Shown: positions 8,915 to 18,970 of the stretch, piece by piece
Layout: each line of letters begins with the position of its first letter
Numbering within the stretch: the first letter of the stretch is position 1
Assembly (NCBI RefSeq): GCF_027497195.1
Contig: NZ_CP114905.1
Location: 5,839,001 to 5,903,000, forward strand
From: Streptomyces sp. WMMC500
GTDB taxonomy: Bacteria; Actinomycetota; Actinomycetes; Streptomycetales; Streptomycetaceae
DNA: 64,000 nucleotides
Reading direction: 5' to 3'
Translations under genes and position numbers: made by a program
The notes under the pieces: generated by a model
The model's database searches: none
Told to the model about the DNA's origin: nothing
What the model saw: the letters and a program-made list of their open reading frames with translations, nothing else

Positions 8915-9244
8915 TCAGGAGGACCCCGCCGGGTGCCGGGAGGCGCCGTTCAGCACCGAGTCCAGCAGGCCCGGGAACCGCTCCTCCAGGTCGTCCCGCC
9001 GCAACCGCACCAGCCGCGTGCGGCCCTGGACCGTCGTCCACGTCACGCCCGCCTCGCGCAGCACCCGGTAGTGGTGCGACATCGTCGTCTGGTGGACGTC
9101 GAGGTCGCCGCCGATGGCGTTGCAGCTCTCCTCGCCCGTCGCGGCGAGCCGTAGCACGACCTCCAGCCGCACCGGGTCGGCGAGCGCGCGCAGCACGTCC
9201 ACCATCCGGATCGACTCGGCCGTGGGCTGGGACACCTCGCGCAT
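8915..9244 (-). CDS. ArsR/SmtB-family repressor
   Basis: 109-residue winged-helix regulator. Residues 15-85 form the HTH: VLRALADPVRLEVVLRLA, EESCNAIGGDLDVHQTTMSHHYRVLREAG, then a beta wing TVQGRTRLVRLR. The usual ELCVC metal motif is replaced by ESCNAI, so metal sensing is doubtful; it may sense an organic ligand or redox state through its single Cys. It is divergent from an MFS transporter with a perfect 7-bp inverted repeat between them, so it most likely represses that transporter and itself. Confidence 0.85.
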   Translation of the reverse strand: MREVSQPTAESIRMVDVLRALADPVRLEVVLRLAATGEESCNAIGGDLDVHQTTMSHHYRVLREAGVTWTTVQGRTRLVRLRRDDLEERFPGLLDSVLNGASRHPAGSS

Positions 9245-9290
9245 CGTCTTCCTCTTCTCCGGTACGGCCCCAGCCTACCCACCCATTGAT

Positions 9291-9310
9291 ACATGGACAA
9301 CTATCCATGT
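9291..9310. promoter_or_regulatory. Operator between ArsR regulator and MFS transporter
   Basis: Perfect inverted repeat ACATGGA - 6 nt - TCCATGT in the 86-bp divergent intergenic region, suited to a dimeric ArsR-type repressor. It ends 20 bp before the GTG start of the transporter. Confidence 0.55.
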
Positions 9311-9330
9311 GTTCTCTAGAGTGCCGTTCC

Positions 9331-10506
9331 GTGACCAGACAGCTCCTGCCCCTCGCCCTCGCCACCTTCGCCGTCGGCACCGACAGTTACGTCATCGCCG
9401 GCCTCCTCCCCGCCATCGCCGCCGACCTCGGGGTGTCCACCCCCGCGGCCGGGCAGCTCGTGACGGTCTTCGCCCTGACGATGGCCGTGTCCGCGCCCGT
9501 CTTCGGGGCGCTCACCGGCGGGCTCGACCGGCGGACGACGCTGCTGATCGCGCTCGGCGTCTTCGTCGTCGGCAACGCCGCCACCGCCCTGGCCACCGGC
9601 TACGCGACCGCCATGGCCGCCCGCGTCGTCACCGCCGTGGGCGCCGGCGTCATCAACTCCGCCGCCTCCAGCACCGCCGCCGCGATCGTGCCGCCCGAAC
9701 GGCGCGGCCGGGCGCTGGCGTTCGTGCTGGGCGGGCTGACGCTGGCGACCGCCCTCGGGCTGCCGCTCGGCACGCTGATCGGCCGCGCCGACTGGCAGGT
9801 CACGCTCTGGGCCGTCGCCGGGACCGGGCTGGTGGCGGCGGTCGGCGTCGCCGTCGGGCTGCCCGCCGTGCGGCTGCCCGCCGCCTCGCTCCGCGACCGG
9901 CTGCGTCCGCTCGCGCACGGCGGCCGGGTGCCGGCGCTGCTGGCCGTCACGATGCTGGCCTTCCTCGGCGCGTACACGCTCTACACCTACGTCGCCCCCG
10001 CCCTCCGCGACGCCACGGACGGCGACGAGTCGCTGCTCACCCTGGTGCTGCTGGCCTGGGGCGTCGGGGTGCTCGCCGGGAACACCGCCGCGGGGCGGCT
10101 GGTCGACCGCCGCGACCCCGCCCGCGTCCTCACCGGGCCGCTCGCGCTCGCCGTCCTCGCCCTGGCGCTCACCCCGCTGGCCACCCGCGCCCTCATACCC
10201 GCGCTGGTGTGGGCGGCGGTCTGGGGCGTGGCCGTCGGCTTCGTCGTCGTGCCGCAGCAGCACCGGCTCGTCGCGCTCGGCCCGGCCGCCGCGCCGGTCC
10301 TGCTCGGGCTCAACTCCTCCGCCCTGTACGCCGGGATGGCGCTCGGCGGCGGGCTGGGCGGGCTGGCGCAGGAGTGGTTCGGACTGAGCCCGGCGGGGCT
10401 GGGACCGGTGGCCGCGGGGGTCACCGGCGTGGCGCTGCTGTGGCACCTGGCTACGTCCCGGGCGCCCCGGCCGTCCCGGACGTCCCGCGCGCGGACGCCG
10501 GCCTGA
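9331..10506 (+). CDS. MFS drug/metabolite exporter (DHA1/AraJ-like)
   Basis: 391-residue 12-TM major facilitator. Early FAVGTDSYVIAGLLPAIAADL and GALTGGLDRRTTLLIALGVF match the DHA1 family (loop 2-3 G-x3-D-R motif), typical of drug or sugar efflux permeases. GTG 9331 is preferred; an ATG at 9308 is in frame but lies inside the operator repeat, leaving no room for an SD site. It is probably controlled by the divergent ArsR protein. It converges on the ABC ATPase gene, the two stops lying at opposite ends of one 24-bp palindrome. Confidence 0.85.
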   Translation: MTRQLLPLALATFAVGTDSYVIAGLLPAIAADLGVSTPAAGQLVTVFALTMAVSAPVFGALTGGLDRRTTLLIALGVFVVGNAATALATGYATAMAARVVTAVGAGVINSAASSTAAAIVPPERRGRALAFVLGGLTLATALGLPLGTLIGRADWQVTLWAVAGTGLVAAVGVAVGLPAVRLPAASLRDRLRPLAHGGRVPALLAVTMLAFLGAYTLYTYVAPALRDATDGDESLLTLVLLAWGVGVLAGNTAAGRLVDRRDPARVLTGPLALAVLALALTPLATRALIPALVWAAVWGVAVGFVVVPQQHRLVALGPAAAPVLLGLNSSALYAGMALGGGLGGLAQEWFGLSPAGLGPVAAGVTGVALLWHLATSRAPRPSRTSRARTPA

Positions 10507-10522
10507 AGGCCGGGCCCGGGCT

Positions 10523-10526
<4 letters not shown>
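10503..10526. terminator. Shared bidirectional terminator palindrome
   Basis: Near-perfect 24-bp palindrome with outer arms CTGAAG and CTTCAG and a GGGCCC centre. It contains the TGA of the MFS gene (10504-10506) and, on the other strand, the TGA of the ABC ATPase gene (10525-10523). A long perfect palindrome with almost no loop could also act as a protein-binding site. Confidence 0.5.
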
Positions 10527-11314
<788 letters not shown>

Positions 11315-11316
11315 TG

Positions 11317-12414
11317 CTACGCCCCTCCCAGTCGGACTTCGCGGCGGCTCATCAGGTAGAGGAACAGCGGAGCCCCGATCACGCTGGTGGCCACCCCCAC
11401 CGGGAGTTCCTGCGGCGACATGACCGTACGGCAGGCGATGTCCACCGTGAGCAGGAAGAGCCCGCCGAGCAGCGCCGCCATCGGCAGGAGCCTGCGGTGG
11501 TCGTTGCCCACCAGCAGCCGGGCGATGTGGGGGACGATCAGCCCGACGAACCCGATCGCGCCGGAGAGGGCCACCGCAAGCCCCGTGAGCAGCGCGGCGA
11601 CGACGAAGAGCGTCACGCGCAGGCGCTGCGGGTCCACTCCCACGCTCGCCGAGGTCTCGTCGCCCAGGAGGATCGCGTTGAGCTGGCGGGCCCGCGACAT
11701 GAGGTAGGCGAAGCCGGTCACCAGTCCCAGCGCGGGAAGGCCGAGTTGGTCCCAGGACGCGCCGGCGAGACTGCCGAGGAGCCAGAAGAGGGCCGAGTTC
11801 GTCGTCCCCGGGTCCTCGGCCTGGAAGACGAGGTAGTTGGTGATCCCGGAGAGGCCGGCGCCGACCACCACCCCGGCGAGCAGCAGCCTGGTCGGCGAGA
11901 ACTCTCCCGTCAGCGTGACGAAGGCGTAGATGACCAGAAGCGCGGCGAGGGCGCCGGCGAAGCCCGCGAAGCCGGCCGAGATCCCGCCGAAGACGCCGAC
12001 GCCCAGGACCATGGAGGCCACCGCGCCGAGCGCCGCGCCCGACGAGGTGCCCAGCAGGTACGGATCGGCGAGCGGGTTGCGTACGAGAGCCTGGGTGACG
12101 ACGCCCACGACGGACAGAGCGGCGCCGACCAGTAGGGCGAGCAGGACGCGGGGCAGCCGGAGGTCCCACACGATGCCGTCCTGCACGAGCGTCCATCCGT
12201 CCGGGTCGCCGAGTCCGGTGATCCGGTGGACGAGGATCTCCACCACCGTGGGCGCGGGGATGGCGACCGAGCCCACCGCGAGCGCGACCACGGACAGCAG
12301 GGGCACGCACAGGACGAGGCCGGCCACCGCCCACCGGATGCCGCCGCGGGCGGGACCGGACCCGGCGGCGAACCGGACGCGGGCGGCGGACGCCCCGGCC
12401 TTCGTGCGCGGCAT
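11317..12414 (-). CDS. FecCD/BtuC-type ABC importer permease
   Basis: 365-residue permease with about 10 TM helices. Family landmarks are LRLPRVLLALLVGAALSVVG, QALVRNPLADPYLLGTSSGAALGA and, late, GFVGLIVPHIARLLVGNDHRRLLP (the loop that docks the ATPase). ATG 12414 shares a base with the stop of the binding-protein gene (TGATG), indicating tight coupling. A single permease gene implies a homodimer as in BtuC. The cytoplasmic N-terminus is longer than usual (about 30 residues, Ala/Arg-rich). Confidence 0.9.
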   Translation of the reverse strand: MPRTKAGASAARVRFAAGSGPARGGIRWAVAGLVLCVPLLSVVALAVGSVAIPAPTVVEILVHRITGLGDPDGWTLVQDGIVWDLRLPRVLLALLVGAALSVVGVVTQALVRNPLADPYLLGTSSGAALGAVASMVLGVGVFGGISAGFAGFAGALAALLVIYAFVTLTGEFSPTRLLLAGVVVGAGLSGITNYLVFQAEDPGTTNSALFWLLGSLAGASWDQLGLPALGLVTGFAYLMSRARQLNAILLGDETSASVGVDPQRLRVTLFVVAALLTGLAVALSGAIGFVGLIVPHIARLLVGNDHRRLLPMAALLGGLFLLTVDIACRTVMSPQELPVGVATSVIGAPLFLYLMSRREVRLGGA

Positions 12415-13481
12415 CAGCCGACGAGGCCGGGGTGGAGTTCCCGGGCCAGGCCGGCGACGGCGTCGGCGTTGCGCACGCTGCCGACCGCGTACTCCTCGTA
12501 GGTCACCGGGATGAACCTGCGCTCCTTGACCGCGGTCACGCCGGCCAGCGGCTCGAAGTCGTCGAGGAACTTCTCGGCCTCGTTCACGACCTCGTCGAAC
12601 TCGGCCTTCGTGTCCTTGCCGTAGACGACGATGGCGATCGCGTCGGGGTTGCGGTCCGCGACCTGCTCCCAGCTCACCTTCTCGTAGGTGCTGTCCAGGT
12701 CCGCGAAGATGTTCTTCCCGCCGGCCTGGGTGATCACGGCGTGGGCGAGGGTCCGGTTGCCCTGGGCGTACGGGGTCTGCGTGCCCTCCTCGTACTCGAA
12801 GCCGAAGACGCTGACGGGCTCCGCGGAACCGACCCGCTCCCGGACCGAGGCGACCTTCTCGCGCATGCCGGACACGAGGGCGTCGGACTCGGCCTTCACG
12901 TCGAAGATCCGGCCGTAGTTGTCCAGGTCCTTGTAGACGGAGGCGAAGTCGGTGACCGGGGCCTTGGACGCCGCTTCGCAGGACGTGCTGAACGCGTAGT
13001 AGGAGTCGATGTCCCGCTCGGTGAGCTGCGCCTGGCTCAGCGCCCCGAGGCCCGCGTCGAAGTTCGACGACCAGCCGCCCACGACCAGGTCGGGCTGCAC
13101 GTTCAGCAACTGCTCCTTCTGGACGGGCGCGTAGGACTTCGGTTTGTACTCGCCCGACAGCTTGTGCAGGCCGTCCGCGACGCGCTCCAGTCCGGGGCGG
13201 AACGCGCCCGGGGCCACGGCCTGAATCCCCGCGATCCGGTCCTTCAGGCCCAGGGACAGCAGCATCTCCAGCACGCTGGAGGTCACGGTCGCCACCCGGG
13301 CCGGAGCCGCCCGGAACGTCGACGTGTGCCCCGTGCAGTCCGTCACCGTCCGCTTCGCGTACGGCTCGCCGTCCGTGGCGGCGGCCGGGGAGGAGTCCCG
13401 TCCCGCCGGCCCTCCGCATCCGGACAGGCACAGCACCGCCAGCGCCAGGGCCGCGGCGATCGGGGTGGTTCCTCTGCGCAT
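12414..13481 (-). CDS. Lipoprotein substrate-binding protein, FecB/TroA-like
   Basis: 355-residue lipoprotein with lipobox LSGC (Cys 22). The periplasmic-binding fold typical of ferric-siderophore/B12 binding proteins is seen: RVATVTSSVLEMLLSLGLKD, VQPDLVVGGW, then the second lobe VFGFEYEEGTQTPYAQGN and ITQAGGKNIFADL, with the long helix linker FDVKAESDALVSGMREKV. It captures a metal chelate at the outer membrane face and delivers it to the permease. First gene after the SagB-like dehydrogenase (72-bp gap). Ligand unknown. Confidence 0.88.
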   Translation of the reverse strand: MRRGTTPIAAALALAVLCLSGCGGPAGRDSSPAAATDGEPYAKRTVTDCTGHTSTFRAAPARVATVTSSVLEMLLSLGLKDRIAGIQAVAPGAFRPGLERVADGLHKLSGEYKPKSYAPVQKEQLLNVQPDLVVGGWSSNFDAGLGALSQAQLTERDIDSYYAFSTSCEAASKAPVTDFASVYKDLDNYGRIFDVKAESDALVSGMREKVASVRERVGSAEPVSVFGFEYEEGTQTPYAQGNRTLAHAVITQAGGKNIFADLDSTYEKVSWEQVADRNPDAIAIVVYGKDTKAEFDEVVNEAEKFLDDFEPLAGVTAVKERRFIPVTYEEYAVGSVRNADAVAGLARELHPGLVG

Positions 13482-13553
13482 TCCATCATTCCGTTCTCGG
13501 TGGGTGGCCGAACCCCCGGCGGGCGCGGGCCCGTCGGCGGACTCGGCCCCGGG

Positions 13554-14681
13554 CTAGCGGGGGGACGCGGCGACGCTCATGTCGATCGGATGGCCGTCGA
13601 CCGGCCCGGCCGGGCGGCCCGCGCCGATCAGGTAGAGGGCGGTCTCGGCGATGCCGTCGACGCCGAGGGCGGCTTCTGCCTCGCTGTCGCGGAACGCGGC
13701 GGTCTGGAAGGGGCCCAGGCCCGTCGCCGTGCTCACCAGGGCGAAGGTCTGCGCGAGGTGCCCGGCGTCCAGGAGGATCATCCGCAGCGTGCGCGGGTGG
13801 CGGTACTTGTACGTCGCCCTGGACACCAGCGCGGTCATGAAGACGACGAAGCCTGCCGTGACCGCCATCTGCTGGCCGAAGCCGAGCCGGTCCACGTGCC
13901 CGGCCCGGAACTCGGGGTCGATCAGCTCCAGCGCGTGCTGCTCGACGTTGTAGTGGTAGAGGCCGGGTGCGACGCCCTCGACGTTGAGCACGCCCACGTA
14001 CGCCTCGATCTCGTGGCGTGCGCCGCCACCGGGGCTGGTGCGCATCATGAGCGTGCCGTACTCGCGGGCGTCCACGAAGTACATCGGGCCGAAGGTGTAG
14101 TGCAGCGTCGTGGCGAGCTGCCGCAGCGTGACCGGTTCCGCGGTGAACTCGCGGTGGGTACGGCGGGCCAGCAGCACCTCGTCGAAGTCCCGGCGCAGCG
14201 GCAGGAACGCCCGGGGCAGCCGGACCCGGGGGGCGTCGGGGTAGCTCTTGAAGACGGGCGGCGGGGGGCCGGTCTCCAGCGCGACGGCGGTGGCCGCCGC
14301 GCGGTGCTCCGCGTCGTCGCCGATGTACACGGCGTCCTTCGTGCCGAAGTGGAAGAACCGGGCCTCCTCGCTCCAGGCGGCCCACTCCGAGGCCAGCAGG
14401 TCCTCCTGCCCGGCCTGTTCCGGGGTGTGCAGGAGCCCGGCGTCCGCCAGGGCGTCGATGGCGGTGCGGACGGACGCGGGGTCGTAGCCGGACAGGGCGT
14501 CGAGGACCGACTCGGGATCCGTCCAGTCCTCGAAGCGCTGCAGCAGGCGCAGCGCGTCCTCGTCGACGGCGACCGCGTTGTCCTCGTCCTCGTCGGAGGA
14601 CTTGGCCGACAGGTAGTCTTCGAGGACGAAGTCGCCCTCGTGCCAGTAGCCGACCAGGCTGCGCGTGCGGCGTAGCTTCAT
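13554..14681 (-). CDS. SagB/ThcOx-type FMN dehydrogenase
   Basis: 375-residue flavoenzyme of the nitroreductase superfamily, SagB branch; relatives oxidise azolines to azoles or other peptide bonds in RiPP pathways. Residues 1-90 (LVGYWHEGDFVLEDYLS, then YDPASVRTAIDALADAGLLH) look like the small winged-helix/RRE-like domain often fused to SagB proteins. The catalytic domain shows RRTHREF, RTSPGGGARHEIEAYV, the Lys-Tyr pair of SagB/McbC in YKYRHPRTLRMILLDAGH, and ATGLGPFQTAAF. ATG 14681 follows GGAGG. Just upstream, after a perfect hairpin, is a 23-codon basic peptide gene, its probable substrate or partner. No YcaO cyclodehydratase is nearby, so the chemistry is open. Confidence 0.8.
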   Translation of the reverse strand: MKLRRTRSLVGYWHEGDFVLEDYLSAKSSDEDEDNAVAVDEDALRLLQRFEDWTDPESVLDALSGYDPASVRTAIDALADAGLLHTPEQAGQEDLLASEWAAWSEEARFFHFGTKDAVYIGDDAEHRAAATAVALETGPPPPVFKSYPDAPRVRLPRAFLPLRRDFDEVLLARRTHREFTAEPVTLRQLATTLHYTFGPMYFVDAREYGTLMMRTSPGGGARHEIEAYVGVLNVEGVAPGLYHYNVEQHALELIDPEFRAGHVDRLGFGQQMAVTAGFVVFMTALVSRATYKYRHPRTLRMILLDAGHLAQTFALVSTATGLGPFQTAAFRDSEAEAALGVDGIAETALYLIGAGRPAGPVDGHPIDMSVAASPR

Positions 14682-14718
14682 GCCTTTCCTCCTTGGAGGG
14701 TTCTCCGGGGGTGATGCA

Positions 14719-14753
14719 GGGTGCGGGGCGGCAGTCCGCGCCGCCCCGCACCC
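14719..14753 (-). terminator. Attenuator-like hairpin between peptide gene and SagB-like gene
   Basis: Perfect 14-bp inverted repeat (14719-14732 with 14740-14753) and a 7-nt loop, 13 bp past the peptide stop and 37 bp before the SagB start. A partial terminator in this position is typical of RiPP precursor genes, giving more peptide mRNA than enzyme mRNA. Confidence 0.6.
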
Positions 14754-14766
14754 GCGGTTCAGCGGG

Positions 14767-14838
14767 TTACGCCGCGTGGTTCGACAGGAGCTTGCCGCGC
14801 GTCTTCTTGGCGCGGACCTGGACCTTGAGCTTGGCCAT
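14767..14838 (-). CDS. 23-residue basic peptide, candidate RiPP precursor
   Basis: A tiny gene with an excellent SD (GGAGGTGA, 5 nt before ATG 14838). The product begins MAKLKVQVR, contains an Ala-Lys-Lys-Thr-Arg run, and ends SNHAA; Lys/Arg make up about a third of it, and it has no Cys, one Ser, one Thr and one His. An in-frame ATG at 14858 would extend it to 30 residues, but the SD lies inside that extension. It sits between an MFS exporter and a SagB-type dehydrogenase on the same strand, followed by a strong hairpin, the layout of a precursor-peptide gene. Alternatives are a regulatory leader peptide or a scaffold peptide for amino-acid addition; no PEARL-like enzyme is visible. No homologue is recognised. 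Confidence 0.6.
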   Translation of the reverse strand: MAKLKVQVRAKKTRGKLLSNHAA

Positions 14839-14886
14839 GGTGTTCACCTCCGTTCGCATTCCGGTCGGTTGGTGCGCCCTCGCGTC

Positions 14887-16086
14887 TCACGACGGCGAGG
14901 GAGTACGGGGGCGCAGCAGGTCGATGCGCCAGAAGGCGGCCAGCGCCGCGAGGGCGAGCAGCCCGGCCGCGACGACGACCCCGGCACGCCAGTGGGTGTC
15001 CTGGACGAGCCAGCCGCCGAGGCCGGTGCCGGCGGCGTTGCCGCCGAAGGTGGCGGTGGTCGCCCAGGCGAATCCCTCGGTGACCGTTCCCGCGGGCGCG
15101 CAGCGGCTGATCAGGCTGAACTCGCCGATGGTCGCGGGGGTCAGGGCGAGCCCGGTGAGGACGGCCAGCCCGAACATGACCGCGAAGCCGGTCCCGGCCA
15201 GGAGGAACAGCACGCAGGCCGCGTACAGGGAGAGCAGCACCACGTAGCGGCGTTCGACGGGTGCGGTCCAGTTCCGGCTGCCGTACCACAGGCCGCTTGC
15301 CGCGCTGCCGATGCCGACGGCGGAGTAGAGCAGGCCGCCCGAGGACGCGTCGCCGGAGGCGTCCGCGAACCCGATGAGCGAGACGCGTACGACGCCCAGG
15401 GCCGCGGCGGTGGCGGTGATCGTGGACAGCAGGAGCAGGAACCCCGCCGCGCGCAGCGGGCTGATGCCCCGCCTGGCGCCCGTGGGCCGGGCCGACCGGC
15501 AGGCGGGCAGCGCGGTGAAGACGAGCGTGCCGGCCGCCATGAGGAGGCCGGTCACCGCCACCGCGGCGGAGGGCCCGGCGACGGCGGACAGCCCCGTCAC
15601 CACCAGCGGTCCGGCGATGAGGAAGGCGTCCAACTGGAGGGAGTCCAGGGCGAGTGCGCTCTCGCGCCGCCGGTCGTCGAGCAGCCGCGGCCACAGCGCG
15701 CGCTGACACGCGGAAACCGGCGGCACCGACGCTCCGGCGAGAAAGGCCGCGGCGCCGAGCGGCCAGGCCGACGACAGCCAGGCGGCAGCCGCCAGACAGA
15801 TGCCGAAGGCGCAGGCGTTGACCGCCGCGGCGGACAGCAGCGGCCGTACCGGGCCGTGCCGGTCCGCGGCCCTGCCGAGGGCGGGGCCGAAGACGGCGTG
15901 GCCGATCCCGGCGGCGGCACCCACCGCGCCCGCGGAGCTGAGGGATCCCGTCTTGTCGTGCGCCAGGAGGATGAGGCCGAGCCCGTACATGCTCACGGGC
16001 AGCCGCGCGAGGGCGCCGGCCGCCAGCACGGCGGGGACCTGGGGGGTGCGCAGGAGCGCCGAGTAGGACGAGGAGGATTCAGCCAT
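14887..16086 (-). CDS. MFS transporter of the SagB/peptide locus
   Basis: 399-residue, 12-TM permease related to the SalY/MFS_1 group often found as product exporter or self-resistance gene in biosynthetic clusters. Seen: LPVSMYGLGLILLAHDKTG in TM1, GPALGRAADRHGPVRPLLSA in the 2-3 loop, and CAPAGTVTEGFAWATTATFG in the C-half. ATG 16086 overlaps the end of the ferredoxin-like gene by 8 bp, so the two are co-translated. It lies 48 bp upstream of the small-peptide gene. Probable role: export of the pathway product, whose return would use the FecBCD-type importer. Confidence 0.85.
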   Translation of the reverse strand: MAESSSSYSALLRTPQVPAVLAAGALARLPVSMYGLGLILLAHDKTGSLSSAGAVGAAAGIGHAVFGPALGRAADRHGPVRPLLSAAAVNACAFGICLAAAAWLSSAWPLGAAAFLAGASVPPVSACQRALWPRLLDDRRRESALALDSLQLDAFLIAGPLVVTGLSAVAGPSAAVAVTGLLMAAGTLVFTALPACRSARPTGARRGISPLRAAGFLLLLSTITATAAALGVVRVSLIGFADASGDASSGGLLYSAVGIGSAASGLWYGSRNWTAPVERRYVVLLSLYAACVLFLLAGTGFAVMFGLAVLTGLALTPATIGEFSLISRCAPAGTVTEGFAWATTATFGGNAAGTGLGGWLVQDTHWRAGVVVAAGLLALAALAAFWRIDLLRPRTPSPS

Positions 16087-16492
16087 GGCCGCAGCCCTCC
16101 GCGGCGTTGCCTAACCCCACCGGGGTCTTCGGGGACGACGCCGGAGAGGGACGGCATCCGCACGACTCGGTCTTGCAGGCGCCGGCGTTCGCCGTGGCCG
16201 GGCGGGTGAGGTGCCCGTACAGGAGCGTGACGGCGGCCGACACGTCCGGCGGCACGGACCACTCGCGGCATCCGCCGCGGGGGCCCGCGAGCACGGCGGC
16301 GACCCCGTCCTCGGGGCAGGTGCGCACGCAGCCGGACGCCGCCACGGTCAGGGAGTCGCGCCCCAGCAGCCCGTACAGCCGGCTGCGGAACTCCCGTACC
16401 CAGGCGTCCCCCGCCTCGGGACGGCATCGCCGGCAGACGAACAGCATGGCGTCGTGCCGTGGCCGGCCGTCGGCGCTCTCCTGAAGGCTCAC
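16079..16492 (-). CDS. Cys-rich (2Fe-2S) ferredoxin-like/DUF1636-like protein
   Basis: 137-residue protein with a thioredoxin-like ferredoxin pattern: FVCRRC near residue 20, then VAASGCVRTCPEDGVAAVL about 35 residues later (CxxC...CxxxC). The C-terminal tail adds CKTESCGC and EGCGHG, giving a second cluster of Cys and a His. It could carry a [2Fe-2S] cluster feeding electrons to the flavin dehydrogenase, or act as a metal-binding protein; DUF1636 proteins are often linked to metal or cobalamin loci. Start is GTG 16492, a weak choice; ATG 16447 would remove 15 residues without touching the Cys motifs. First gene of the seven-gene operon. Confidence 0.65.
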   Translation of the reverse strand: MSLQESADGRPRHDAMLFVCRRCRPEAGDAWVREFRSRLYGLLGRDSLTVAASGCVRTCPEDGVAAVLAGPRGGCREWSVPPDVSAAVTLLYGHLTRPATANAGACKTESCGCRPSPASSPKTPVGLGNAAEGCGHG

Positions 16493-16604
16493 CCCTAGTC
16501 AGTCGGGAGCCGGGCCCGCCGAGTTCCCGGCGCGGGCCCGGCGATTCGACGGATGCGCTTCTGCGCGCGGCCCGTTCCGGCCCGGCCGGCTCCGGCGCGA
16601 CGGG

Positions 16605-16620
16605 TTGTACAACGTTGGAA
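16605..16620. promoter_or_regulatory. Candidate LacI-family operator upstream of GH43
   Basis: In the 200-bp divergent region between the ferredoxin-like gene and the GH43 gene, TTGTACAA (16605-16612) overlaps CAACGTTG (16610-16617), both perfect palindromes. A central-CG dyad is typical of LacI-family sugar repressors that control secreted glycosidases. The cognate repressor is not in the window. Otherwise the region holds only G+C-rich DNA. Confidence 0.45.
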
Positions 16621-16692
16621 TCTCCGCTACAAACCTCGTGACACCCTCCTGCGCACCACACCCCCACAGGCACCGCACGGAAGGTACGCACC

Positions 16693-18189
16693 GTGACCCA
16701 CGCCGTACGCAGACTCCGCCGCCGCCCCTGGGCGGCCCTGGCCGCGACGCTGCTCGCCGTCGCCGTGGCGGCCGGCCTCGGCCCGGCAGCCGCCGACGAA
16801 GCCCCGGCGACCGGCGGCGCCGCCGCGGACCGCGCCGCGGCCGCCCCGGCAGCCGGTCAACCCGCTGCCGCCGCCGGCCAGTTCCGCAACCCCGTCAACA
16901 CCGGCGCCGACCCCACCCTCGTCACGTACGAGGGCAACTACTACGTCGCCACCACCCAGGGCGACGCCCTGCGCATGTGGAAGTCCCCCTCCGTCGCGAC
17001 CCTCCTCACCGCCTCCCCGCACGAGGTCTGGCGCGACAGCGACCCCTCCCGCAACCAGCAGATCTGGGCCCCCGGCCTCTTCAGGGACGGCGACCGCTGG
17101 TACCTCTACTACACCGCCAGCGACGGCAACGACGCCACGCACCGGATGTACGTGCTGGAGTCGGAGGGCGCCGACCCGCTCGGCCCGTACCACTTCAAGG
17201 CCAAGGTCGCCGACTTCGGCAACGACCGCTGGGCCATCGACGGAGAGCCCTTCCGGCACGACGGCAAGCTGTACTTCGCCTGGAGCGGCCAGCGCGACGA
17301 CGGCGTCGGCAACCAGCTCTTCGTCGCCCCCATGTCCAACCCCTGGACCCTCTCCGGCGGTCGCGTCCACATCCCCGCGGACGGCAACTGCCCCGAGGTG
17401 CGCGAGGGCCCCACCCCGCTGCACAACGCCGCGGGACGGCTCTACCTCACGTACTCCGCCTGCGACACCGGCAAGCCCGACTACGCGATCTGGGCCAAGT
17501 CGCTGGCCCCCGGCGCGAACCCGCTCGACCCCGCCGCCTGGCGGCAGGAGCCCGGCCCGATGTTCTCGCGCAACGACGGCGCGGGCGTCTACGGCCCCGG
17601 GCACCACTTCTTCTTCAAGTCGCCGGACGGCAGCGAGGACTGGATCGCGTACCACGCCAAGAACACGACGACGTTCACCTACAGTTGGCGCACCACGCGG
17701 GTGCAGAAGATCGGCTGGACCGCGGACGGCCGCCCCGACCTCGGCACCCCCGTGGCCGCCGGCGCGACGATCGACCTGCCCGCGGGCGACCCGGGCCCCG
17801 GCACCACGGCGCTCAACGACACCGACCCGCAGGTGACGTACACCGGCAACTGGAACTCCGGCGGCGGCTGCGCCGTGCAGTGCTTCTGGGGCAACGACCA
17901 CTGGAGCGCGGAGGCCGGCGCGACGGCCACGTTCCGGTTCACCGGGACGCGGCTGGCGCTGCTGTCGGTCAAGGACACCGGCAACGGGATCGCCGCGATC
18001 TCCGTCGACGGCGGCCCGGAGCAGCGCGTCGACTACTACGGCAGCCCGCGCGTCGGCGAGCAACTGCAGTGGGTGAGCCCGGAGCTGCCGCGCGGCGAGC
18101 ACACGGTACGGATCCGGGTGACCGGCGAGAAGAACCCCGACTCGGGCGCGGCGTTCGTGTCCGTCGACCGGGCGGAGGTCTATCCGTAG
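16693..18189 (+). CDS. Secreted GH43 glycosidase with C-terminal beta-sandwich domain
   Basis: 498-residue extracellular enzyme. An Arg-rich N-terminus with hydrophobic core (AALAATLLAVAVAAGLG) forms the signal peptide, followed by an Ala/Pro linker. The GH43 propeller spans about 62-375: NPVNTGADPTLVTYEGNYYV (base Asp), QIWAPGLFRDGDRWYLYYTA, WAIDGEPFRHDGKLYFAWSG (pKa Asp), and CPEVREGPTPL (acid Glu). Residues 380-498, starting DTDPQVTYTGNW, look like a CBM-like jelly roll (TATFRFTGTRLALL). Most likely an alpha-L-arabinofuranosidase or endo-arabinanase relative. GTG 16693 follows GGAAGG. Probably repressed through the LacI-type dyad 73 bp upstream. Confidence 0.85.
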   Translation: MTHAVRRLRRRPWAALAATLLAVAVAAGLGPAAADEAPATGGAAADRAAAAPAAGQPAAAAGQFRNPVNTGADPTLVTYEGNYYVATTQGDALRMWKSPSVATLLTASPHEVWRDSDPSRNQQIWAPGLFRDGDRWYLYYTASDGNDATHRMYVLESEGADPLGPYHFKAKVADFGNDRWAIDGEPFRHDGKLYFAWSGQRDDGVGNQLFVAPMSNPWTLSGGRVHIPADGNCPEVREGPTPLHNAAGRLYLTYSACDTGKPDYAIWAKSLAPGANPLDPAAWRQEPGPMFSRNDGAGVYGPGHHFFFKSPDGSEDWIAYHAKNTTTFTYSWRTTRVQKIGWTADGRPDLGTPVAAGATIDLPAGDPGPGTTALNDTDPQVTYTGNWNSGGGCAVQCFWGNDHWSAEAGATATFRFTGTRLALLSVKDTGNGIAAISVDGGPEQRVDYYGSPRVGEQLQWVSPELPRGEHTVRIRVTGEKNPDSGAAFVSVDRAEVYP

Positions 18190-18244
18190 GCGGCCGTCGG
18201 ACGGTGTGACCGACCGGCGAGGGGGAGCAGTTGCCCGGTGGTGG

Positions 18245-18970
18245 TCATCTTGCCCAGCGCGGGCAGAACTCCACGTGCAACTGCTCCCAGTCGCGCATGT
18301 TCCGTGTGTCCAGGCCCCAGTCGTGGACGGGGCGGCACACGTGGTAGTTGCAGGCGCCGGGAATGTAGAGACCGGTGGCGGCTTCCGGCGGTCCGTACTT
18401 CGTGACGGCGAAGATGTCCCTGGCGCCTTCCCGGAAGGCCGCGGCGCCCCCGGTCAGCAACAGCGTCTCGGCGTAGACGTCTTTGCGAAGGAGGAACTCG
18501 TTCGCCTCCTTCGGGTCGTCCGGAACGCGGTAGTCGCCGTCGGGATCGGGAAGGTCCCGCTCCGGCACACCGGCGGTGTGGAGCTGTCGGGCGGCGTTCC
18601 CCGCGCGCAGGCCCGCCCGGATCCGCTTCCACCGCGAAGGGCGCAACTGCGCGGTGCGCGGGGCCAGTACGAGGTCGAGCGGGTGCTCGCCGTCCTCGCC
18701 GATACCGGGGACGGCCGGGGTGGTGCGCATCGGCAGGTAGACCAGGGAGTGCGGCGACCGCGCCGCGAGCAGCCACAGCGTGCCGACGCGGCGGCCGTCC
18801 GTGCGGTCCACGTACATCTCGTAATGGCTGCGGGTCTTGTAGAGCGCCCCGTTCTTCAGCGGCCCGGCCGGCCGGATCACGCGGTATTCGGTACCGGCCA
18901 CCCGCACCTTCTGCACGACGATCTTCACGCGCAGGCCGTCGCGGGTCAGGCGGGCACGTGACGCGGCCAT
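18245..18970 (-). CDS. Hypothetical protein
   Basis: 241-residue soluble protein with no signal peptide or TM segment. The N-terminal half is basic and beta-rich (LRVKIVVQKVRVAGTEYRVI, then SHYEMYVDRTDGRRVG). The C-terminal half contains KEANEFLLRKDVYAETLLLT, GARDIFAVTKYG and CNYHVCRPVHDWGLDTRNM. I do not recognise the family. ATG 18970 is preceded by GGGAGAG, and the earlier in-frame codons up to 19363 run through the promoter region of the divergent nuclease gene, so they are excluded. Convergent with the GH43 gene, 55 bp apart. Confidence 0.6.
   Translation of the reverse strand: MAASRARLTRDGLRVKIVVQKVRVAGTEYRVIRPAGPLKNGALYKTRSHYEMYVDRTDGRRVGTLWLLAARSPHSLVYLPMRTTPAVPGIGEDGEHPLDLVLAPRTAQLRPSRWKRIRAGLRAGNAARQLHTAGVPERDLPDPDGDYRVPDDPKEANEFLLRKDVYAETLLLTGGAAAFREGARDIFAVTKYGPPEAATGLYIPGACNYHVCRPVHDWGLDTRNMRDWEQLHVEFCPRWAR

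Follow-up and report, generated by a model that had tools for sequence, protein, structure and literature searches.

SagB-type enzymes usually work with YcaO partners, as azoline oxidases acting after YcaO. The NCBIfam family TIGR04511 (SagB_rel_DH_2) pairs with TIGR04509 (mod_pep_NH_fam) in putative peptide maturation systems. FMN dehydrogenases of the SagB/McbC/ThcOx group occur in the streptolysin S, microcin B17 and cyanobactin systems and, as BmdC, with the bacillamide NRPS. In the accessible part of PMC7413640, a SagB-type dehydrogenase of nocobactin clusters is reported to oxidise the oxazoline of an NRPS siderophore, and the accessible part of PMC7726476 describes a Pseudomonas SagB-type gene with a small protein, of which the SagB-type mutant gave no mobility shift. 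Copper-binding RiPPs include the methanobactins, the His-butyrine-crosslinked peptides of PMC10206099 and the product of the Microbulbifer cluster of PMC12538549 (the latter two as far as the available portions go). For M. tuberculosis, the available portion of PMC7924339 reports that SigC prevents copper starvation, that inducing SigC increases expression of ctpB and of the nrp operon, and that copper reverses the growth defect of a sigC mutant in copper-poor medium.

The operon described here lies in a 64,000-nucleotide stretch of Streptomyces sp. WMMC500 (contig NZ_CP114905.1), the whole of which is called the window. It encodes a very short peptide, named the NH peptide after its C-terminal NH pattern, and an enzyme that shares the nitroreductase fold, the RRE-like N-terminus and the Lys-Tyr pair with the SagB/McbC/ThcOx group. 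Unlike the systems of that group, the operon has no YcaO partner, its peptide has no Cys, and a single modifying enzyme is present. As in the nocobactin clusters (accessible part of PMC7413640), a SagB-type enzyme would stand beside a metallophore pathway, but the operon showed no NRPS gene. With the methanobactins and other copper-binding RiPPs the system would share a ribosomal peptide proposed to bind copper; methanobactins, however, are made by MbnBC acting on Cys (available portion of PMC8888699), whereas SagB is the sole modifying enzyme seen here. No description of the NH peptide-SagB pair was found in the literature searched, which took in little of the subscription literature, and the pair is absent from the accessible parts of PMC7726476, PMC12710340, PMC7470986, PMC7413640, PMC8939145 and PMC7924339.

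The NH peptide precursor, assigned from its open reading frame and its conservation, has 23 residues (MAKLKVQVRAKKTRGKLLSNHAA) and is encoded on the minus strand at 14767..14838, including the stop codon. The upstream sequence, AACGGAGGTGAACACCATG, carries a strong Shine-Dalgarno (SD) element, and sagB starts 85 bp 3′ of the stop codon. A first-pass annotation, made from the letters of the window, had proposed this pairing of a 23-codon ORF and a SagB-type dehydrogenase; it is confirmed in the window and kept at 13 loci. The starting set consisted of 69 loci from one scan of genome contigs, and a script run over the scanned loci found short ORFs with an SD 5′ of many SagB genes. The NH pattern was present at 13 SagB loci from several actinomycete genera (the window, L003, L004, L005, L008, L009, L010, L012, L013, L015, L016, L017 and L020), after three extra regex matches (in L020, L060 and L098) had been set aside as spurious. 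The 12 loci beyond the window come from Amycolatopsis (two), Herbihabitans, Spongiactinospora, Streptosporangium (two), Nocardia, Allonocardiopsis, Sinosporangium, Actinoalloteichus, Nonomuraea and a Streptosporangiales MAG.

In the alignment of the 13 peptides, Arg9, Thr13, Arg14, Leu18, Asn20 and His21 (window numbering) were invariant, and residue 17 was Leu in all but L016, which has Ile. The arrangement Leu18-[Ser/Asn]-Asn20-His21 was found in 13/13. The annotation had remarked on the lack of Cys and on the single Ser and Thr of the window's peptide; this is borne out, Cys is missing from all 13, and the core is not rich in Cys, Ser and Thr as is required of TOMM/LAP substrates. It had proposed aligning the peptides to look for a conserved leader and a variable core; the 13 peptides show no clearly variable core. 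Across the 13 loci, synonymous and nonsynonymous changes numbered 225:214 in frame, compared with 80:379 and 14:421 in the shifted frames; the substitution pattern fits a translated peptide, and conservation ends at the stop codon. Judged from this constraint on the sequence, the ORF is not a chance one, and a conserved short encoded precursor beside a modifying enzyme, as expected for a RiPP, is found at all 13 loci. The peptide gene lies 3′ of sagB in L003 and 5′ in the other 12; since the pairing survives this change of gene order, peptide and enzyme appear to be linked. Loss of the peptide from syntenic loci, or a lack of covariation with the enzyme, had been named as evidence against the pair; this check favoured the pair, the NH peptide being found at 12/12 FecB-bearing SagB loci with flanking sequence. 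The 13th locus, L016, retains the peptide, and no FecB orthologue was found there (best match 33% identity).

The SagB/ThcOx-type FMN dehydrogenase (375 residues; 13554..14681, minus strand) was identified from profile matches, an AF2 model and solved relatives. It scored 102.3 bits against TIGR03605 (SagB family peptide dehydrogenase), above the curated cut-off of 78.4. The nearest NCBIfam model by score was TIGR04511, with 166.3 bits, below its curated cut-off of 240, so that the TIGR04511/TIGR04509 system is the closest match and yet falls short of membership. A TIGR04509-type precursor was considered and rejected; the 87-position model had no match in the window's genome (G000), the model being silent on the controls too. 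Residues ~1-80 form an RRE-like domain and residues ~150-358 the nitroreductase fold. In the AF2 model (mean pLDDT 85.3, 33-row alignment), the N-terminus contains strands 3-5, 9-14, 17-22 and 36-38 and helices 41-50, 56-62 and 68-80, followed by the nitroreductase domain; we take this strand-helix order to be the PqqD/RRE pattern. ThcOx, BmdC and McbC were among the best solved relatives, and the alignment with ThcOx and BmdC begins at residue 1. The predicted topology and this alignment agree with the RRE-like N-terminal domain suggested earlier, although peptide binding by it is putative. The Lys-Tyr pair that the annotation had called intact is Lys292-Tyr293, which is invariant.

SagB proteins of this family were found in 19 of 392 genomes of the genus Streptomyces (E <= 1e-60) and in 5 of 394 genomes in the class-level search; among the Streptomyces matches that were fetched, only the window's SagB had an NH peptide. 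In a tree of 63 SagB rows of at least 320 residues, from which 7 duplicate or near-duplicate loci had been omitted, the NH loci fell in one 17-row group (support 89, an open fork and not decisive), which also contains three loci without the NH peptide.

Other tiny peptides were observed beside SagB genes. The members of a second class have a leader like MRKISxxAxPVxRxDR and a variable tail, often rich in Trp and Tyr, and resemble a classical leader/variable-core RiPP family; they occur in L021-L035, L037, L039, L040, L042, L096-L100, L109 and L117, including two Mycobacterium genomes. In L102 and L103 (and, with one variant, L101), two or three near-identical tandem copies of MDIVIIEDREVVAHHPSL lie 5′ of SagB, and these loci adjoin JmjC/cupin-cluster genes (PF08007 was tested in L011 only). 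In L056, L057, L061 and L063, ORFs of 76-97 residues 5′ of SagB end in YRYRG[DN]TCC[VA], and this Cys-Cys tail sets them apart from the NH class.

Neither YcaO (PF02624) nor LanB (PF04738) was matched in the window's part of G000. In the genome as a whole, three YcaO-domain matches fall between 3.937 and 3.951 Mb, with one LanB-domain frame at 3.944 Mb; these genes cluster together (C1:3937533-3951091), 1.9 Mb from the NH operon, and likely form another RiPP cluster. Among the 14 NH-type genomes (that of L018 included), PF04738 was present in 13 and PF02624 in 12. Both were undetected in the Herbihabitans genome G765 (L005), which has the full operon, and PF02624 was undetected in G775 (L020); assembly completeness is not given for either. 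The pathway, as far as the genomes indicate, thus shows no sign of requiring YcaO or LanB, and the earlier suggestion of a peptide-SagB pair that works without YcaO, LanB or PEARL enzymes is supported by a conserved, co-varying pair and by G765. The peptide tail resembled a PEARL scaffold; this reading was dropped because G765 has no PF04738 match.

The operon reads, on the minus strand, Cys-rich ORF (16492-16079), MFS transporter (16086-14887), NH peptide, SagB (14681-13554), FecB (13481-12414), permease (12414-11317) and ATPase (11314-10523). The MFS protein, a putative product exporter, matches PF07690 with 76 bits, and the same cluster is found in 10 loci. FecB is a substrate-binding lipoprotein (PF01497). 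The FecCD-type permease was assigned from its gene call and from a cluster shared with L003 and L008 genes that match PF01032 (~298 bits), and the ATPase of the same importer from sequence and clustering. All NCBIfam matches of FecB were far under cut-off; the best was a putative F420-0 transporter, the others included siderophore, B12 and heme binders, and none was for copper.

The transporters follow the peptide closely. We compared 72 SagB-bearing loci after removal of 5 duplicates; 13 loci without a SagB of the cluster in the gene calls are not counted, and neither is L018, whose peptide would fall off the contig, among the NH loci. FecB was found at 12/13 NH loci and 0/58 other SagB loci (Fisher p 1e-12, a guide only, because the NH loci are related), FecC at 11/13 and 0/58, and MFS at 9/13 and 0/58. 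An ECF sigma gene was counted at 5/13 and 0/58, the true NH number being at least 6/13, as the gene of L015 was called short. L018 itself has FecB, FecC, MFS and the ECF sigma factor. The gene calls came from a custom script, not a standard caller, and some starts are wrong. The FecBCD genes lie 5′ of the peptide in L003-L005 and 3′ of SagB in the window, L008, L009, L010, L012, L013, L015, L017 and L018; in L020, FecB is oppositely oriented and FecC was not called. The families and their co-occurrence with the peptide support the earlier view of a product that is probably exported and re-imported, its metal binding being putative. No protease gene conserved across loci stood out.

The Cys-rich protein (137 residues, 16079..16492, C-x2-C ... 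C-x3-C) is the first gene of the operon; it is 2Fe-2S-like by motif only, and its true start is uncertain. Among the matches listed, homologues occur in L004 and L005 (E 2e-23 and 2e-28), with five Cys shared, and a separate homologue search with the protein returned only itself. The annotation had taken this ferredoxin-like protein, together with the flanking transporters, as a hint of a metal-binding product; since it is present at only 3/13 NH loci, we consider it accessory. In L012, a second small Cys-motif protein (9218-9613, plus strand; CRGCCC ... C-x3-C) lies directly 5′ of the NH peptide and, among the matches listed, had no significant BLAST match to that of the window. Ferric-reductase-like membrane proteins (PF01794), possible metal reductases, are encoded near the NH loci of L013 (8374-9471, minus strand) and L016 (12686-13579, plus strand).

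A putative SigC-type ECF promoter, GGAAC-N17-CGACT, lies at 16501..16527 on the minus strand of the window, a motif shared among the NH loci and derived from k-mers common to the regions 5′ of the peptides. The form GGAAC-N17-CGAC was present within 200 bp 5′ of the peptide or operon at 11/13 NH loci, L003 and L020 lacking it; for the window, L004 and L005 the region searched was that 5′ of the Cys-rich gene, for L003 that 5′ of FecB, and for the others that 5′ of the peptide. Other spacers from 10 to 25 occurred at no more than 1 NH locus each, and the motif was found in the 400 bp 5′ of 0/59 SagB genes that have no NH peptide. In 500 dinucleotide shuffles it occurred at a mean of 0.04 loci (maximum 2), which is not an independent test because the motif came from the same sequences, the checks in G000 and Mycobacterium described below being closer to one. 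The Mtb SigC consensus, in the form used here, had no match 5′ of the operons. In the window, the GTG at 16492 follows the −10 element after about 8 bp, which would make this start either leaderless or wrong; in L004, the site falls inside the first gene call, 5′ of a later ATG. Cobalamin or other riboswitch control was also considered and rejected: over window positions 9000-18500, Rfam gave only a sub-threshold CRISPR-DR29 match (26 bits, threshold 39) inside the permease gene, and the seven of the 12 other NH loci that were scanned gave nothing at gathering score.

ECF sigma genes of a single cluster lie near L004, L005, L008, L016, L017 and L018, and an intact one stands beside L015. The two sigma factors tested (L005 and L017) matched NF007231 SigC best, with 157.9 and 172.7 bits, below the cut-off of 219. 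A SigC-like orthologue was found in 13/14 NH-type genomes; leaving aside the genome of L017 itself, these orthologues share 47-75% identity with the L017 protein. The best match in G775 reached only 36%.

The exact promoter pattern occurs 25 times in the 8.6 Mb of G000, compared with 24 for the reversed control; as the genome-wide count is at chance, only position and conservation are informative. Two of the 25 sites were inspected, that of the window and C1:987471-987445. Downstream of the latter come an ORF of 72 residues, a P-ATPase of the copper type (PF00403 and PF00122), a PCuAC copper chaperone (PF04314), a membrane ORF and the genome's own SigC-like sigma gene (C1:982692-983201). In G769 and G770, too, PCuAC genes are found near the SigC-like gene, and G768 has a copper-type ATPase there; among these three regions, the strict motif stands 5′ of an importer gene set only in G770. 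In the genome of L003, a GGAAC-N17-CGAC site (L130, position 9047, plus strand) was noticed between a SigC-like gene and a FecB-permease-ATPase set other than that of the NH locus; this set may be a second importer under SigC control.

In the Mycobacterium genome G780 (the source of L034), a looser pattern gave 128 sites vs 172 for the control. Among the 100 of these listed, 22 begin with GGAACT, and 20 of the 22 were fetched as a chosen sample. Five of the 20 lead into a CtpB-like copper ATPase, a 120-residue heavy-metal-associated-like ORF, two PPE genes and a PE-like gene; behind the remaining 15, nothing copper-related was recognised. The ATPase starts 39 nt 3′ of its site and is 61% identical to the ATPase of G768. 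One of the site-linked PPE genes is followed by TauD, a 224-residue ORF, an AMP ligase, a carrier protein (PP-binding) and an NRPS, a layout which we take to be that of ppe1-nrp. The NH promoter sequence thus appears to be shared with counterparts of known SigC targets. The mycobacterial diisonitrile chalkophore locus ppe1-nrp has the same promoter type 5′, a SigC-like factor and copper-starvation control, the last as reported for Mtb in the available portion of PMC7924339; its product, however, is an NRPS-made isonitrile lipopeptide, made without SagB, whereas that of the NH operon would be a ribosomal peptide. Six GGAAC-N17-CGAC sites were also observed in a 19-kb stretch of a Mycobacterium genome (L164), chosen for its site clustering, an apparent copper island with PPE-TauD, a copper ATPase, a zf-HC2 protein, DUF5134 and a CtaG-type cytochrome oxidase assembly gene.

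From promoter position and conservation, the NH operon very probably belongs to a copper regulon. The SigC-type promoter and sigma factor make copper the most likely metal. We propose that low copper would free the SigC-like factor, which would read the promoter at 16527-16501. The N-terminal part of the peptide, basic and with alternating hydrophobic residues, may bind the RRE-like domain of SagB, as fold and pattern suggest. SagB, which we infer to act on the NH peptide, would then oxidise its otherwise unmodified C-terminal part near the conserved L-[S/N]-N-H, without YcaO or LanB. A host protease would trim the product. A cut after Leu would yield NH2-[Ser/Asn]-Asn-His, the ATCUN arrangement, which binds Cu(II); this step is speculative and rather doubtful. 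The MFS protein would export the product and FecBCD would take up its metal-loaded form, as the transporter families and their co-occurrence suggest. The chain as a whole, in which the operon answers copper starvation with a RiPP metallophore that is matured by SagB only, exported by MFS and recaptured by FecBCD, is in our judgement somewhat probable. More tentatively, the system may be a new class of RiPP as well as a chalkophore of a new kind, in which an RRE-fused SagB alone oxidises an otherwise unmodified 19-28-residue peptide around a conserved Leu-[Ser/Asn]-Asn-His, the peptide is trimmed to a dehydrogenated ATCUN-type copper ligand, and the pathway is switched on by a SigC-type sigma factor in copper starvation.

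The regulation data would also fit an operon of the copper regulon whose modified peptide is no metallophore but serves as cofactor, signal or small copper ligand inside the cell, with FecBCD importing something else, such as a foreign chalkophore or a corrinoid. Cofactor precursors such as PqqA and MftA are conserved along the whole peptide, as the NH peptide is; the lack of a conspicuous protease gene and a FecBCD specificity that is not pinned by family matches also speak for such a role. We nevertheless regard it as unlikely, since MFS and importer both co-occur with the peptide in the usual export-recapture layout, and an intracellular ligand needs neither. A metallophore for iron, zinc, nickel or cobalt is more improbable still. 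The FecBCD family of the importer and the ferric-reductase-like genes near L013 and L016 would suit it, but the promoter is shared with the copper ATPase/PCuAC genes of G000 and with SigC-target counterparts in Mycobacterium, and Rfam found no riboswitch in window positions 9000-18500 and no match at gathering score in the 7/12 other NH loci that were searched.

The usual pairing of SagB with YcaO, the YcaO and LanB-domain genes at 3.94-3.95 Mb of G000 and the presence of these domains in 12/14 and 13/14 NH-type genomes, respectively, could mean that SagB oxidises azolines made by a YcaO encoded elsewhere (TOMM/LAP), or that tRNA-dependent ligases extend the peptide, which would then be a PEARL scaffold. 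Either is very improbable given G765 without both domains, G775 without YcaO, peptides that all lack Cys and the grouping of the G000 genes 1.9 Mb away. Least credible of all is an attenuator or chance ORF in place of a substrate. The ORF is short, basic and immediately 5′ of sagB at 12/13 loci, as an attenuator might be, but it is constrained at the amino-acid level, it lies 3′ of sagB in L003, and other SagB clades have tiny peptides of their own.

Returning to the metallophore reading, the operon is conserved in relatives and carries a copper-starvation switch sequence, and it therefore probably encodes a secreted copper-scavenging peptide of a new kind. This suggests that non-mycobacterial actinomycetes acquire copper via a ribosomal product; if so, one regulator would command chalkophores of two origins, NRPS-made in mycobacteria and ribosomal in the other actinomycetes. 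GGAAC-N17-CGACT may serve as a sequence handle for actinomycete copper-acquisition genes. A conserved SagB family also seems to work without YcaO and with tiny substrates of its own, and two short genes would therefore suffice to test for a new reaction of a flavin enzyme on an unmodified peptide.
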